From Leifsonia sp. 466MF (GTDB lineage: Bacteria > Actinomycetota > Actinomycetes > Actinomycetales > Microbacteriaceae), in assembly GCF_900100265.1 (NCBI RefSeq), contig NZ_LT629696.1, positions 2,728,001 through 2,792,000 on the forward strand: a stretch of DNA of 64,000 nucleotides, written 5' to 3'. Positions 42,024 to 63,325 of the stretch are shown in pieces. Position numbers and translations under genes: made by a program. Every line of letters begins with the position of its first letter. The first letter of the stretch is position 1. The notes under the pieces are model-generated. The model worked only from the letters and a program-made list of their open reading frames with translations, had not been told where the DNA came from and made no database searches.

Positions 42024-43787
42024 GTGCCACGTATCACCAAGGTTTTGATCGCCAACCGCGGCGAGATCGCCGTCCGCGTCATCCGTGCGGCGAAGGACAG
42101 CGGGATCGCCTCCGTCGCCGTGTACGCGGACCAGGACCGGGACGCCCTCCACGTCCGCCTCGCCGACGAGGCCTACGCGCTGGACGGGACCACGAGCGCC
42201 GAGACGTACCTCGTCATCGACAAGCTCCTGTCGGTCGCGCGCCGCTCGGGTGCCGACGCCGTGCATCCGGGTTACGGCTTCCTCGCCGAGAACGCAGACT
42301 TCGCCCGCGCCGTCATCGACGCCGGGCTGACCTGGATCGGCCCGTCCCCGGAGGCCATCGAGCGCCTGGGCGACAAGGTCTCCGCACGTCATGTGGCCGA
42401 GAAGGTGGGGGCGCCGCTCGCCCCCGGAACGCTCAACCCCGTCAAGGACGCGGCCGAGGTGCTCGACTTCGTCGATGTCTACGGGCTTCCTGTCGCCATC
42501 AAGGCGGCGTTCGGGGGCGGTGGCCGCGGCCTGAAGGTCGCCCGCGCCCGCGAGGAAGTGGCGGAGCTGTTCGAGTCGGCCACGCGCGAGGCGATCGCCG
42601 CCTTCGGCCGGGGCGAGTGCTTCGTCGAGAAGTACCTCGACCAGCCGCGCCACGTCGAGACCCAGTGCCTCGCGGACGCCTACGGCAACGTCGTCGTCGT
42701 CTCCACACGCGACTGCTCGCTGCAGCGCCGGCACCAGAAGCTCGTCGAGGAGGCGCCCGCGCCGTTCCTCACCCCCGAGCAGACCGAGAAGCTCTACTCG
42801 TCGTCCAAGGCCATCCTCAAGGAGGTCGGTTATCAGGGCGCCGGGACGTGCGAGTTCCTCATCGGCAAGGACGGCACGGTCTCGTTCCTCGAGGTGAACA
42901 CGCGCCTCCAGGTCGAGCACTGCGTCTCGGAGGAGGTCACCGGCATCGACCTCGTCCGCGAGCAGTTCCGTCTCGCCGAGGGCGGCGAGCTCGACTACGA
43001 CGACCCGGCTCCCCGCGGCCACTCGTTCGAGTTCCGCATCAACGGTGAGGACGCCGGCCGCGGCTTCATCCCCTCCCCCGGGCCCGTGCATGTCTTCAAG
43101 GCCCCCAGCGGCCCCGGCGTCCGCGTCGACAGCGGCATCCAGGCGGGCGACGTGATCAGCGGCTCGTTCGACTCCATGCTGGCCAAGCTCATCGTGACCG
43201 GCGCCAGCCGCGAGGAGGCCCTCGAGCGCTCCCGCCGCGCGCTGGACGAGTTCGAGGTCGCGGGCCTTCCGACCGTCCTCCCCTTCCACCGCGCCATCGT
43301 GCGCGACCCCGCCTTCGCACCGCAGGACGGCGAGCCGTTCTCCGTCTACACGCGCTGGATCGAGACCGAGTGGGTCAACGAGATCGAGCCGTGGTCGGGC
43401 GAGCTCGGCGACCAGCCGGCCGCGGAGCGCCGCAGCAATGTGGTCGTCGAGGTCGAGGGCAAGCGCATCGAGGTCTCCCTCCCCGCGCGTCTCCTCAGTG
43501 GTGGTGCCGGCGAGCCGTCCGGTGCCCCCGCTCCGCGTCGCCGCGGCGCCGCGCACGCGGTGGACACCGCGACCGGCGACTCCGTCACCGCTCCGATGCA
43601 GGCCACCGTGGTGAAGGTCGCCGTCGCCGACGGCGACCCGGTCGTCAAGGGCGACCTGGTGCTGGTGCTCGAGGCCATGAAGATGGAGCAGCCGCTGACC
43701 GCCCACAAGGACGGCACCGTCTCCGGCATCAACGCGAGCGTCGGCGAGACCGTCTCGTCGGGCCACTTGCTGCTCAACATCGTCTGA
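42024..43787 (+). CDS. Acyl-CoA carboxylase alpha subunit (biotin carboxylase + BCCP)
   Basis: A 587-residue protein of the AccA3 type. The biotin carboxylase domain (about 1-450) has [27 protein letters not shown] (ATP-grasp loop), [17 protein letters not shown] and [12 protein letters not shown] linker of about 60 residues precedes the biotinyl domain (about 515-587) with [11 protein letters not shown], whose Lys (about 553) is the biotin site for the BirA encoded at 34 kb. It would pair with the beta and epsilon subunits at 34.6-36.5 kb to make malonyl- or methylmalonyl-CoA. The gene ends inside an 18-bp tandem repeat. Confidence 0.96.
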
Positions 43788-43846
43788 CACCACCGCATCG
43801 TCTGACACCACCGCATCGTCCGACACCACCGCATCGTCCGAGACCG
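43778..43846. repeat. 18-bp tandem repeat spanning the carboxylase alpha stop codon
   Basis: CATCGTCTGACACCACCG occurs twice exactly, a third time with one change (T to C, which removes an in-frame TGA) and a fourth time partly (43832-43846). The first unit holds the last codons and stop of the gene, so the 3' end has been reduplicated in frame downstream. Confidence 0.85.
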
Positions 43847-43905
43847 GCGTCCGCGTCGCGAGCCGCGCCATATCGCGCGCCCGACGCGCCGCCAACCATC
43901 TTCCG

Positions 43906-43950
43906 AAAGGGAGGAGCACCGCCGACATTCGGGCGGAAGCTCCTCCTTTT
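43906..43950. terminator. Terminator after carboxylase alpha / DUF559 gene (also part of repeat copy D)
   Basis: GGAGGAGC (43910-43917) pairs with GCTCCTCC (43939-43946), with an inner CCGCC/GGCGG stem (43919-43923, 43932-43936), and is followed by TTTT on the plus strand. It serves two convergent genes. Confidence 0.8.
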
Positions 43951-43990
43951 CGCGCGTCATCCCGCCGCCGCACGACGCAACTCCTCCCTT
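43907..43990 (-). repeat. Three-box element, copy D
   Basis: Read on the minus strand: box 1 AAGGGAGG begins at 43990, box 2 AAAAGGAGGA at 43950 (40 nt on), box 3 CCTCC begins at 43914. Box 1 lies inside the last codons of the DUF559 gene; boxes 2 and 3 form the terminator hairpin. Confidence 0.6.
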
Positions 43991-44814
43991 TCCAGCGACC
44001 CGAGCAACTCCTCGATGGTCGCCACCGTCGCGTCCGGGCTCCGAAGTACCTGACGCGCCGTCAGCCGCAACCTCGGCAGACCCTGCAGTGTCATGGCGAC
44101 ATCGCGGCGGCGATCGCGCTCGAACGCTTCGCAATCGGCGTGGAACTCGAATCCGTCGATCTCCAGATAGAGCACCCCATCCACCCGGGCATCGACGCGC
44201 CCGACTCCAGGGACGGCGAGCTGCTGCTCGACGATGTGACCGCGAGCCGTGAGACGCTGCCGGAGGAGGGACTCGACGCCGGAGTCCGAACCGGGCCGCG
44301 CACGTTCGGCGAGACGTCTGGACCGATGCGGTTCATCCGCGAACACCCGTCGCAGCCCGTGGCGTGTCACCTGGCCGGTAGAGATCGCCGTGTCGAGCAC
44401 CGCGATGGCGGTCTCGTCCTCTGCGCACCGCACGGCGCTGCGCAGACAATCGGCCAGCGAAACACGCCACACCTCGCTGTGCCGTTCTGCGCGACCCCAA
44501 TGACGGACCGTCCGGTCATCGGCGGCTCCTGCCCGTCCGGCGTGGGGAGGAACCAGCAGATGTGTCCGTTCGTCCTGGCCGCCCCACAATCCGTATGTGC
44601 GGGCGGCGGTGACACAGCAGAGGCGCCCGCCGGCCCGCAGGGCTGAAATGGCGGCGTCACCGATCCCGGGAAGGGCATAGCGACCGTTCCGCGGCCGCAG
44701 GAGGCGACCTTCGCGCACGGCGGCGGACAGGACGTGCCCCCGCGCCCCGGCCTCCTTCAATTGGCCGAGCGACGCTGCGCCACCGAGGCGAGTGAGTTCC
44801 GTCATCCAATCCAT
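43957..44814 (-). CDS. DUF559-type endonuclease-like protein with N-terminal winged-helix region
   Basis: A 285-residue protein. Residues about 1-95 resemble the AbiEi-like N-terminal winged-helix region (LTRLGGAASLGQLKEAG, RNGRYALPG). Residues about 185-275 resemble DUF559 and Vsr/restriction-like nucleases: GVESLLRQRLTARGH, VDARVDGVLYLEIDGFEFH with spaced Asp and Glu-x-Asp residues, and FERDRRRDVAM. Such genes are scattered singly in actinobacteria; biological function is unknown. ATG 44814 is used; ATG 44805 has better ribosome-site spacing (GGGGA 10 nt away). It is bracketed by inverted copies (D and A) of the three-box element. Confidence 0.7.
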   Translation of the reverse strand: MDWMTELTRLGGAASLGQLKEAGARGHVLSAAVREGRLLRPRNGRYALPGIGDAAISALRAGGRLCCVTAARTYGLWGGQDERTHLLVPPHAGRAGAADDRTVRHWGRAERHSEVWRVSLADCLRSAVRCAEDETAIAVLDTAISTGQVTRHGLRRVFADEPHRSRRLAERARPGSDSGVESLLRQRLTARGHIVEQQLAVPGVGRVDARVDGVLYLEIDGFEFHADCEAFERDRRRDVAMTLQGLPRLRLTARQVLRSPDATVATIEELLGSLEREELRRAAAG

Positions 44815-44920
44815 GTCCCCATACTGCGGAACGGCGGCTGCCGTCAGGACGGACAGGGGCGATCTGTGGAGAGATCCACTCGGGTGTCGATTGTGCACAC
44901 CGTGTGTCCCGCGGGACGGA

Positions 44921-45015
44921 AAGGGAGGAGATCGCAGCCGACACGCCGCCGGAACGCCACGAACGGAGGAGATGGGGACGGGAAACCCGCAGGAACTCCT
45001 CCGTTCCGCGGGCGG
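44921..45015 (+). repeat. Three-box element, copy A
   Basis: Box 1 AAGGGAGG at 44921, box 2 GAACGGAGGA at 44961 (40 nt on), box 3 CCTCCGTTCC at 44998 (27 nt after box 2). Box 2 with the next base and box 3 form an 11-bp perfect inverted repeat (GAACGGAGGAG/CTCCTCCGTTC). TGTCCCGCGGGACGGA precedes box 1, and GCGGGCGG follows box 3. It ends 15 bp from the antiporter stop codon. Confidence 0.65.
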
Positions 45016-45029
45016 CCCAGCGTCAGGCG

Positions 45030-46961
45030 TCAGCCGGTCGCCTCCGTGGGGTCGCCCTTCAGGTCGATGCTGATCTCGTCGGCGTCGAGGTTGCTCAGGG
45101 CGCCGGCGAGGACGTCGGCGCTGAACGCGCCGTCGTCGCGCGCATCGAGAAGGGCATCGCGCTGGGCCCGCAGCTGAGCGAGCCGCGCCCTCTTGTGCTC
45201 GGCGAACGCCTCGGGCGTGCGCTCGGTCGTCGTCGACACCGGGACGGTCTTCGCCGCGTCGTAGAGGAGTTCCATCAGCTTGCGCCGTTCCTGCCGCTCG
45301 GCCTCCGGGTCGGCCGCCGCGGGCTTGACGGCCTTCAGCACGAGCCCAAGGGTGCCGCCCTGGAGAAGTAGCGACCCCGTCGCTACGAGGAAGGCGATGA
45401 GCACGAGCACCGAGCGGCCCGGCGTGTTGTCGGGCAGCGACTGGGCGGCCGCGACGGTGACGGCGCCGCGCATCCCCGCCCACACCACGATCGTGCCCTC
45501 ACGCCACCCGAGCGGGGCTCCCGTGAAGTACTCGATGTCGGCCAGCAGTCGTCGGAGGCGCGTGCCGAAACGGGTCAGGTTCTCGACGGTCGGGATGCCG
45601 CGACGCGCGAGCAGGCGACGCCGTCGCTCGGCCTGCTTGGGCGAGAGGGGGCGTCGGCCAGCGGAGTCGCCGAAGACAGGGTCCGGGAACGCGGGGTCCG
45701 GGAATGTCGGATCGGGCACAACGGTCGCCGCGACGGCGGAGGACGCAGCGGGCGCAGGGTCGGGCGAGGTGTCCGCCGGCACGTCGGCACCCGATCCCGC
45801 GCCGGACTCGTCTCCGACCTCCCCCGCGGCCGCCGACGAGCCGGCCGCGAGCGCCCGCTGCTCCCCCGGTTTCGCGATGCGCTCGGCGATCCCCCGCCGC
45901 ACCGCCTCCGGATCGGTCAGGTGCTCCTGCAGCTGCTCCAGGCGCGGCCGAATCCGTTGCCTTCGCTTACTGCGCCGGGCCAGCAGAGCGAGCAGGGGCG
46001 CGACGAACGCGGCGCGCACCAGGATCGTGAGAAGGAGAGCGCCCGCAGCGATTCCGATGGCGGGCGCCACCCCGGAATGGTCCTCCTGCACGTCCTGCAC
46101 GATTCCGAACAGCTCCAGGCCCATCGTCAGGAAGATGAGCCCCTCGAGGATGAGCTCGACCGTCCGCCAGTTCTGCGCATCCGACAACCGGTGTTCCGGC
46201 GAGAGCACGCGCGGCGCGCGGCTGCCGGTCACGAGGCCGGCGACGACAGCGGCGACGAGGCCGGAGGCGCCGAGCGCCTCTGCCGGGATCGAGGCGAGGA
46301 ACGGCACGGTGAACGAGATGACGGTGTTGACCGTGGCGTCCTTCACGCGAGCACGGACGAGCAGGTTCAGCCAGCCGACCACCACGCCGAAGACGACGGC
46401 CACGAGCACCGAGTACACGAACGAGAGCGTGACCGCACCGACCGTGAACGACGCGCCGGCGGCGGCCACGGCTGCTCGCAGGAGCACGAGCGCGGTCGCG
46501 TCGTTCAGTAGGCTCTCACCCTCGAGGATGGCCACGACGCGCGGAGAGACGCCCGCCCGTTTGACGATCCCGGTGGCGACGGCGTCGGTCGGGCTGACGA
46601 TGGCACCGAGGGCGATCCCCCAGCCGAGACCCAGGCCCGGGATGACCCAGGCGAAGAACAGCCCGAGCAGCACGGAGCTCACGATCACGAGCAGGACGGA
46701 GAGCCCGCCGATCGCCCCGAACTCACGCCGGAAGTTCATGGCCGGCATGGACACGGACGCCGAGTAGAGCAGCGGTGGGAGCACCCCCGCGAGGATCCAC
46801 TCCGGTTCGAGCTCGATCGCCGGCACGAACGGCAACAGGCTCACCAGGATGCCGATGACCATCAGGATCAGGGGCGACGCGACGCCGAACCGCGGCCCGA
46901 ACGTCGTCGCCGCGGCGATGGTGAGCACCGCGAGCACTCCGATGACGAGCCCGACCTCCAT
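45030..46961 (-). CDS. CPA1 family Na+/H+ antiporter
   Basis: A 643-residue transporter. About 12 helices, with LPPLLYSASVSM, SPTDAVATGIVKRAGV, the ion-binding GESLLNDATALVLLR (Asn-Asp pair) and late WAGMRGAVTVAAAQSLP, define the NhaP/CPA1 family. A roughly 150-residue hydrophilic insertion (about 335-485) before the last helices includes repeated PDPxFPDPxF units rich in Pro and Asp. The C-terminal about 80 residues are cytoplasmic and charged. It exchanges Na+ (possibly K+) for H+ across the membrane and is probably monocistronic. Confidence 0.9.
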   Translation of the reverse strand: MEVGLVIGVLAVLTIAAATTFGPRFGVASPLILMVIGILVSLLPFVPAIELEPEWILAGVLPPLLYSASVSMPAMNFRREFGAIGGLSVLLVIVSSVLLGLFFAWVIPGLGLGWGIALGAIVSPTDAVATGIVKRAGVSPRVVAILEGESLLNDATALVLLRAAVAAAGASFTVGAVTLSFVYSVLVAVVFGVVVGWLNLLVRARVKDATVNTVISFTVPFLASIPAEALGASGLVAAVVAGLVTGSRAPRVLSPEHRLSDAQNWRTVELILEGLIFLTMGLELFGIVQDVQEDHSGVAPAIGIAAGALLLTILVRAAFVAPLLALLARRSKRRQRIRPRLEQLQEHLTDPEAVRRGIAERIAKPGEQRALAAGSSAAAGEVGDESGAGSGADVPADTSPDPAPAASSAVAATVVPDPTFPDPAFPDPVFGDSAGRRPLSPKQAERRRRLLARRGIPTVENLTRFGTRLRRLLADIEYFTGAPLGWREGTIVVWAGMRGAVTVAAAQSLPDNTPGRSVLVLIAFLVATGSLLLQGGTLGLVLKAVKPAAADPEAERQERRKLMELLYDAAKTVPVSTTTERTPEAFAEHKRARLAQLRAQRDALLDARDDGAFSADVLAGALSNLDADEISIDLKGDPTEATG

Positions 46962-63019: not shown

Positions 63020-63120
63020 AAGTCACCTCCGTGGTCCGGACGACGTCGAGTCGACACGAGTTCAGGACGGCCCGAGGGGCCACCTAACTGTACGCTCGCG
63101 AACCCTCCGGACGCTGGACA

Positions 63121-63203
63121 CGGAGGTCGCCCGCGCCTGGGCGCACGCCATCCACCTCCCTTTCGCGCCGATCCGCCGATCTCGCGACGGATACGCCTCC
63201 CTT
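63121..63203 (-). repeat. Three-box element, copy C
   Basis: On the minus strand: box 1 AAGGGAGG begins at 63203, box 2 AAAGGGAGGT at 63163 (40 nt on), box 3 CCTCCG begins at 63126 (27 nt after box 2). TGTCCCGCGCACGA precedes box 1, resembling the flank of copy A. Confidence 0.65.
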
Positions 63204-63228
63204 TCGTGCGCGGGACAGGCCGAGAGAG

Positions 63229-63325
63229 AAGGGAGGCGATCAGCACGCACTGCTCGGCGCGTCGCGAGGAACGGAGGACAGAGTGGGGCTCCGATGGCCG
63301 GCCGACCTCCGTTTCGGCGGGCGGA
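63229..63325 (+). repeat. Three-box element, copy B
   Basis: Box 1 AAGGGAGG at 63229, box 2 GAACGGAGGA at 63269 (40 nt on), box 3 CCTCCGTTTCGG at 63306 (27 nt after box 2), followed by CGGGCGG as in copy A. Confidence 0.65.

Follow-up and report, generated by a model that had tools for sequence, protein, structure and literature searches.

Why should a chromosomal gene for a predicted nuclease be enclosed by inverted copies of a short, elaborately patterned DNA element? The question is raised by a 64,000-nucleotide stretch (the window) of the 4.14-Mb genome of Leifsonia sp. 466MF (here G000), in which a gene at 43957 to 44814 on the minus strand, encoding a 285-residue protein, lies between two copies of a three-box element. 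An earlier note on this DNA had proposed that the gene and its inverted ends form a small mobile or self-maintaining cassette. The arrangement holds up on inspection, is conserved and occurs generally across the family, and it probably reflects a partnership of dispersed palindromes with an enzyme, similar to that between repetitive extragenic palindromes (REPs) and REP-associated tyrosine transposases (RAYTs), in which the enzyme is an unrelated one.

The half-element overlapping the 3' end of the gene, copy D (43899 to 43993, minus strand), and that on its 5' side, copy A (44918 to 45012, plus strand), match R1, a covariance model for the half-element that was derived from 15 G000 halves, D and A among them, at 74.9 bits (E 1.2e-16) and 74.8 bits (E 1.3e-16), respectively. 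In each half, of about 95 bp, box 1 recurs in direct orientation as box 2 at a distance of 41 bp, and about 43 bp beyond that stands box 3, an inverted repeat of box 2. Copy D has an exact box 1, GAAAGGGAGGAG, at 43981 to 43992 (minus strand), a box 2, GAAAAGGAGGAG, with one mismatch at 43940 to 43951 (minus strand) and an exact box 3, inverted relative to the other two, at 43905 to 43916 (plus strand). Copy A has an exact box 1 at 44919 to 44930 and a box 2, AACGGAGGAGAT, with one mismatch at 44962 to 44973 (both plus strand), followed by its inverted box 3 at 44994 to 45005 (minus strand), which reads exactly AACTCCTCCGTT on the plus strand. The box 1 copies face inward, that of D lying in the last codons of the gene, the box 3 copies are outermost and the gene is inside, as the earlier note had described. 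Exact copies of GAAAGGGAGGAG occur at 43905 (plus), 43981 (minus) and 44919 (plus); with up to two mismatches it has 13 matches against 4.29 expected, a number reached in none of 100 shuffles. For AACTCCTCCGTT there are 9 matches against 2.79 expected, and none of 100 shuffles had as many.

The columns that never vary among the 15 halves comprise the GGAGG/CCTCC boxes plus two A residues. The segment from box 2 to box 3 can fold as a hairpin, for which these halves show 25 compensating changes against 13.9 in shuffles (as high in 0 of 500). The result is mixed for 56 model-aligned halves, in an alignment fitted to the structure: they have 83 double changes, where shuffling gave 60.3 (none of 500 as high), but 11 pairs with a double change, where it gave 10.9 (387 of 500). 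Between boxes 1 and 2 of copy A lies a core, CGACACGCCG (44939 to 44948, plus strand, read by eye), which recurs, identical or nearly so as judged by eye and without a statistic, in the family-2 elements described below and beside nucleases of other genera (loci L098 and L232).

Across G000, R1 gave at least 63 full-length matches at values up to about 1e-4, or at least 58 halves after removal of five that overlap, a lower bound because about 150 of 11,525 first-look candidates were scored. The copy numbers given below come from whole-genome searches in which about 150 of thousands of candidates were scored per genome; they too are lower bounds, and they include some overlapping matches and the copies at nuclease flanks, so that G000 counts 67 R1 matches there against 58 separate halves. 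Unseen in the earlier note, these copies are mostly gene-less pairs of about 210 bp, 42 of the 58 halves forming 21 head-to-head pairs and 16 being single. A second pair lies inside the window at 63111-63321, its halves at 63111 to 63206 (minus strand, 58.3 bits) and 63226 to 63321 (plus strand, 66.6 bits) being separated by an inner gap of 19 bp. Pair 21 encloses the nuclease gene in a 924-bp gap, and the inner gaps of the 20 gene-less pairs range from 9 to 63 bp (9, 9, 9, 9, 10, 18, 19, 19, 19, 20, 20, 20, 20, 20, 29, 29, 30, 40, 51 and 63) with a best period of 10.6 bp (R 0.918; as high in 0 of 20,000 jittered sets). Copying of a few parent pairs could explain the equal gaps in part but not the full ladder; distinct gaps alone gave R 0.88 at 10.5 bp. 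Twelve inner gaps from other genomes were chosen by eye among the matches listed; tail-to-tail cases and one gap of 151 bp in G007 were set aside. The codon-phase (GC phase) signal at 22 sites was 0.01-0.24 in the elements against 0.27-0.63 in their flanks, and because they carry so little of it the elements are probably non-coding. The earlier note had held that elements common beside unrelated genes, with no association with DUF559 genes, would undo its reading; the dispersed copies do adjoin many unrelated genes, yet a strong association with the nuclease family persists.

The predicted fold of the 285-residue protein (predicted local distance difference test, pLDDT, 93.8) joins an AbiEi-like DNA-binding part to a Vsr/I-Bth0305I-like nuclease. 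Residues 1-173 resemble AbiEi antitoxins, with an N-terminal winged helix, and residues 174-276 form the nuclease domain, related to PF18741 and DUF559, whose nearest structural match is I-Bth0305I, a homing endonuclease. Judged by this model, the catalytic domain has the fold of Vsr-like (EDxHD) endonucleases. Of the aligned homologues, 42 of 42 matched PF18741 and 29 of 42 DUF559 at E 0.01; the window protein itself falls short of Pfam's own cut-offs, scoring 25.2 bits against PF18741 (MTES_1575, cut-off 38.2) and 14.9 bits against DUF559 (PF04480, cut-off 20.6). NCBIfam gave no match for this protein, and PADLOC returned the AbiEi part and a weak PDC-S37 match (E 0.051). The gene is very common, its family being annotated under the names 'AbiEi family antitoxin', 'DUF559' and 'very-short-patch-repair endonuclease'; the nearest named relatives belong to Leifsonia, and the plasmid collection (two records) and phage collection (one record) hold distant relatives only. 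E181, D208, E218, D220, H225, D234 and D238 are invariant across 42 sequences and are candidate acidic and histidine residues for the predicted cleavage. The nuclease gene has a ratio of nonsynonymous to synonymous substitution rates (dN/dS) of 0.14-0.19 in eight pairs of relatives, and purifying selection acts on the nuclease domain.

Nuclease homologues are present in 27 of the 28 genomes of the genus, several of which have two. In 24 of the 28, a nuclease gene lies beside the biotin carboxylase gene and/or the antiporter gene, recognised by peptide motifs in the flanks; in the window these fixed neighbours, identified by Pfam and synteny, are a biotin carboxylase/biotin-carrier protein gene on the left (42024 to 43787, plus strand) and a sodium/hydrogen exchanger gene on the right (45030 to 46961, minus strand). 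The nuclease evolves faster than its neighbours. It is vertically inherited, single copy and not a moving cassette in this genus, and the mobile part of the earlier proposal is not supported; among relatives, no polymorphism was seen in which the segment is present or absent with its outer boxes as the breakpoints. At the left neighbour, a tandem 18-bp unit, CATCGTCTGACACCACCG, was noticed at the stop codon and just past it (43778-43845).

A nuclease also occurs in 13 genus genomes beside a different gene, an open reading frame beginning MTQDYRK, which we take to be msrB (the msr locus). Downstream of this second-locus nuclease, at L078, L079, L080, L082 and L085-L087, a conserved block, CAGCGAACTCACAG...TGACGGCGYCGCAGCCAGC, precedes the MTQDYRK gene; it resembles a leader RNA, and in some nuclease genes the reading frame takes it in as the C-terminus.

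Each clade of nucleases has its own boxes. Applied to 29 further nuclease loci, R1, built from G000 only, found halves on both sides at 15, weak one-sided matches at two and none at 12, and all three named Leifsonia loci had R1 halves on both sides. The R1-negative loci hold other boxes: in G025, G008 and G004 AACTCCGGA is found at the corresponding place in the chromosome, again spaced by 41 bp, and the msr-locus paralogues have AATCTCC...GGAGATT upstream. When 36 nucleases were placed on a tree, a single branch (100/96) had all 15 R1-type rows on one side, and the 12 msr-locus rows grouped together (100/98).

Three repeat families correspond to the three nuclease types. Where the nuclease has R1 ends (15 genomes), family 1 (R1) has 28-84 matches, against 0-26 in the other 13. 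Family 2, searched with a model (R2) that drew on eight nuclease flanks from five genomes, without the downstream flank of L067 and the upstream flank of L069, has 20-64 in its five source genomes and 0-25 in the other 23. Family 3, for which the model (R3) was built from nine nuclease flanks (L079, L080 and L081 excluded), was found in 13 of 13 genomes with an msr-locus gene, one such gene being a fragment, and in one of the 15 without it (G010, eight matches). Two sister genomes, about 95% identical in their element flanks, differ accordingly: G020, with the paralogue, has 46 R3 matches, and G000, with no gene at that place, has none. The earlier claim that the gene and its inverted ends belong together is thus borne out by bracketing at 15 of 29 loci, in the window and at the three Leifsonia loci, by the separate elements of other clades and by copy number that tracks the nuclease. 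In G026 two nuclease copies (C1:3128072-3128904 and 3419923-3420341) appear broken, with split frames or stops, and 36 family-1 and four family-3 matches persist. G020 also has a short tandem array of family-3 elements, as in REPs, with four matches in 516 bp (C1:1552428-1552943).

Could the boxes simply be operators, at the gene itself and across a regulon, of a transcription regulator embodied in the AbiEi-like part, with the nuclease domain incidental? The character of the N-terminal part, the phased inverted boxes, which suit cooperative binding, and the element upstream of the gene are all consistent with this. The positions of the dispersed copies, compared using the top-ranking family-1 sites among the matches listed, are not. 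In G020, 7 of 8 such sites lie at G000 loci, and in G010 11 of 12 do; the figures for three distant species are 0 of 6, 1 of 7 and 0 of 7 (1 of 20 in total), and in these species the test could see an orthologous flank, inside a 780-kb stretch (19% of the genome), for 3 of 20 sites. Because the distant sites, but for one, are not shared with G000 while orthologous flanks are detectable, element positions turn over while the nuclease locus stays, and they do not mark conserved genes, which weakens the regulon interpretation. The second copy at the 3' end of the gene, and purifying selection on a nuclease domain with seven invariant residues, also argue against a regulator, and we consider it unlikely.

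The same comparison bears on how the elements change. Of six dispersed family-1 sites of G000 examined in G020, four are shared, one lacks a matching flank and one is lost. The difference at 63111-63321 was considered as an insertion in G000 and rejected, since the element is present at the same locus in G010, making it a deletion in G020. Three family-3 sites of G020 could be matched on both flanks in G000, which has 12-58 bp in place of 157-171 bp, a difference that either gain or loss may have made; at one of these three comparable sites a 7-bp repeat, GCTCGGC, was seen by eye beside the family-3 copy and is single in G000.

The arrangement extends beyond the genus. From 39 other-genus loci, four failed a score and coverage filter for near-complete genes, leaving 35 loci in 18 genomes of 18 genera. 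When the reverse complement of the 5' flank was compared with the locus's own 3' flank, 24 of the 35 scored higher than the 99th percentile set by 1,190 pairs with swapped flanks, a score exceeded by 0.6% of random 855-bp segments of G000; 21 of 35 passed in direct orientation, as expected because the elements are palindromic. The box CGGAAATGCAGGAG (up to one mismatch) occurs 107 times in G056 and 0-28 times in 59 other genomes, the reversed pattern being absent from G056, and 27 box pairs in G056, among the matches listed, are spaced 80 bp (22), 69 bp (4) or 92 bp (1) apart. G048 and G084 are also rich in this box, yet have no PF18741 match; this profile is an insensitive probe that missed the window's own gene at E 1e-6, and absence by PF18741 was not used. 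With the family profile, G048 yielded three nuclease genes, and inverted boxes enclose two of these exactly. The G056 and G048 nucleases share only 34% and 38% identity with that of the window.

Other observations concern the surroundings of these genes. In G055, of another genus, the nuclease (L107/L207) lies beside what appears to be the same biotin carboxylase gene end, with a different element on both sides. In three genera (L097, L098 and L106, in G036, G066 and G063) it lies beside a gene starting MRIDIVTIFPEFFSVLDVSLLG, presumably trmD, which suggests a second old fixed nuclease locus. The boxes of G084 (contigs C1 and C2) are CAGAAATGCAGGAG-like, with ten pairs 66-69 bp apart among the matches listed.

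These comparisons also bear on the idea that the elements are ordinary non-autonomous elements of some other transposase, the nuclease gene having been caught between two copies long ago. The pairs do resemble miniature inverted-repeat transposable elements (MITEs), many copies lie far from the nuclease, and G084 has boxes with no nuclease found. Chance capture, on the other hand, leaves unexplained the clade-specific boxes at the same locus, the three families that track three nuclease types and the bracketing at 24 of 35 other-genus loci. A RAYT as mobiliser was rejected, no gene for Y1_Tnp (PF01797, the RAYT-type domain) having been detected in the 28 genus genomes at the tool's threshold, which controls passed in 5 of 14; other transposase families were not searched for. 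We regard such capture as quite improbable.

Beyond the association, which is shown, we infer that the nuclease binds, cuts and mobilises the elements; the earlier suggestion that it acts on the element is a sensible one. The single-copy AbiEi-like/Vsr-like fusion would recognise short boxes, helically phased sites in palindromic intergenic elements, with the half-elements at its own gene serving as reference ends and the dispersed head-to-head pairs as non-autonomous units acted on in trans. Its N-terminal part would bind boxes on one face of the DNA, the two inverted halves would be brought together, and the Vsr-like domain would nick or cut in or near the palindrome, after which repair or replication might copy or move the element, or preserve its palindromic form. 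On mobilisation in trans by this nuclease we consider the case evenly poised. More broadly, the AbiEi-Vsr-like endonucleases across Microbacteriaceae may, with about equal chances of being so or not, constitute a second, independently evolved REP-type class, each keeping and spreading its own phased palindromes in trans while box specificity changes jointly, the Vsr-like nuclease doing the job of the HUH transposase.

A homing-type selfish nuclease, which would cut element-free chromosomes so that the element spreads through repair copying and the gene itself travels as cargo, is suggested by the closeness of the fold to I-Bth0305I; the gene, however, stays at one locus, and no clean-insertion empty sites were seen for family 1, making this reading very unlikely. 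A role at the level of RNA or chromosome structure only, as bidirectional terminators or nucleoid sites unrelated to the nuclease, agrees with the hairpin of boxes 2 and 3 and with the non-coding GC phase at 22 sites, but is hardly credible given that the window has no Rfam match at gathering scores, that terminator and sigma-70 scans found nothing at 43700-45200 and that the nuclease association would go unexplained.

Several results speak against the partnership of nuclease and dispersed palindromes proposed here. No insertion event was polarised, and the sole family-1 polymorphism is the deletion in G020. The element is confined to the 5' side at the msr-locus paralogues; 11 of the 35 other-genus loci fail the inverted-flank test, and in a plain local-alignment test of inverted flanks against random segments 10 of 34 genus loci pass, no msr-locus gene among them. 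R2 reaches 25, 16, 15, 13 and 13 matches in G007, G001, G017, G002 and G006, whose nuclease has family-1 ends, R1 has 26 matches in G008 and 25 in G013, both with family-2 ends, and six of the 13 msr-locus genomes have just 2-5 R3 matches; the exceptional copies could be leftovers of former nuclease types. All these genomes are related, and the counts are not independent; for this reason, and because flank copies are included, the p values for copy number against the nuclease serve as indications only. G084 holds 25 boxes, but the family profile finds no nuclease there at E 1e-6; its boxes may be a relic, or may belong to a diverged nuclease or another enzyme.

How, then, does the system compare with those already known? 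Vsr accompanies Dcm, but the present gene lies neither beside a Dcm methylase gene nor in an intron, and it differs from Vsr, I-Bth0305I, NGO0050 and other EDxHD nucleases in its fusion to an AbiEi-like part and its association with dispersed palindromes. Unlike the AbiEi antitoxins of type IV toxin-antitoxin systems it has no adjacent toxin gene, its neighbours by Pfam being the biotin carboxylase and sodium/hydrogen exchanger genes. MITEs of DNA transposons share the pattern of short, gene-less elements with inverted ends and one gene-bearing copy; here, in contrast, the gene-bearing copy is immobile in the genus, the inner gaps follow the DNA turn and no clear target-site duplication is seen, the 7-bp repeat at one of three comparable sites being a candidate. 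In the open-licence PubMed Central literature, a scope outside which subscription papers and preprints fall, DUF559 was not linked with repetitive extragenic palindromes, AbiEi or inverted repeats; two papers that name it together with palindromes deal, judging by their titles, with other matters.

To our knowledge, REP sequences depend on one type of enzyme, the RAYT HUH transposase. If the proposal holds, the combination of a single-copy enzyme with dispersed palindromes has evolved repeatedly, a use is found for a very common, unnamed gene, and there is a second system in which to ask how such partnerships are kept alive. Recognition of DNA by the protein can be tested directly, since nature offers several box specificities, each with its matching protein. 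Parts of the papers that define RAYTs (PMC2817692) and REPINs (PMC3116915) describe a gene between two inverted REPs that co-evolves with them, is single copy and changes fast relative to its neighbours, and repeats that accompany the enzyme. So far as those parts go, the likeness is close: the gene is flanked by two inverted palindromic repeats in the window, at 15 of 29 genus loci by R1 and at 24 of 35 other-genus loci; the repeats are dispersed, intergenic and often in inverted doublets, as with the 58 halves and their 21 pairs; the enzyme is single copy, vertically inherited and faster-changing than its neighbours; and the repeat co-varies with the enzyme and is present where the enzyme is, copy-number exceptions aside. 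The differences are that the present enzyme is AbiEi-like and Vsr-like, without a Y1/HUH domain, that the elements are longer (a half of about 95 bp and a pair of about 210 bp) with three phased boxes, and that no GTAG or CGTC tag is conserved among the invariant columns of the 15 halves. The system seems to work like REP/RAYT, yet is not a member of it.
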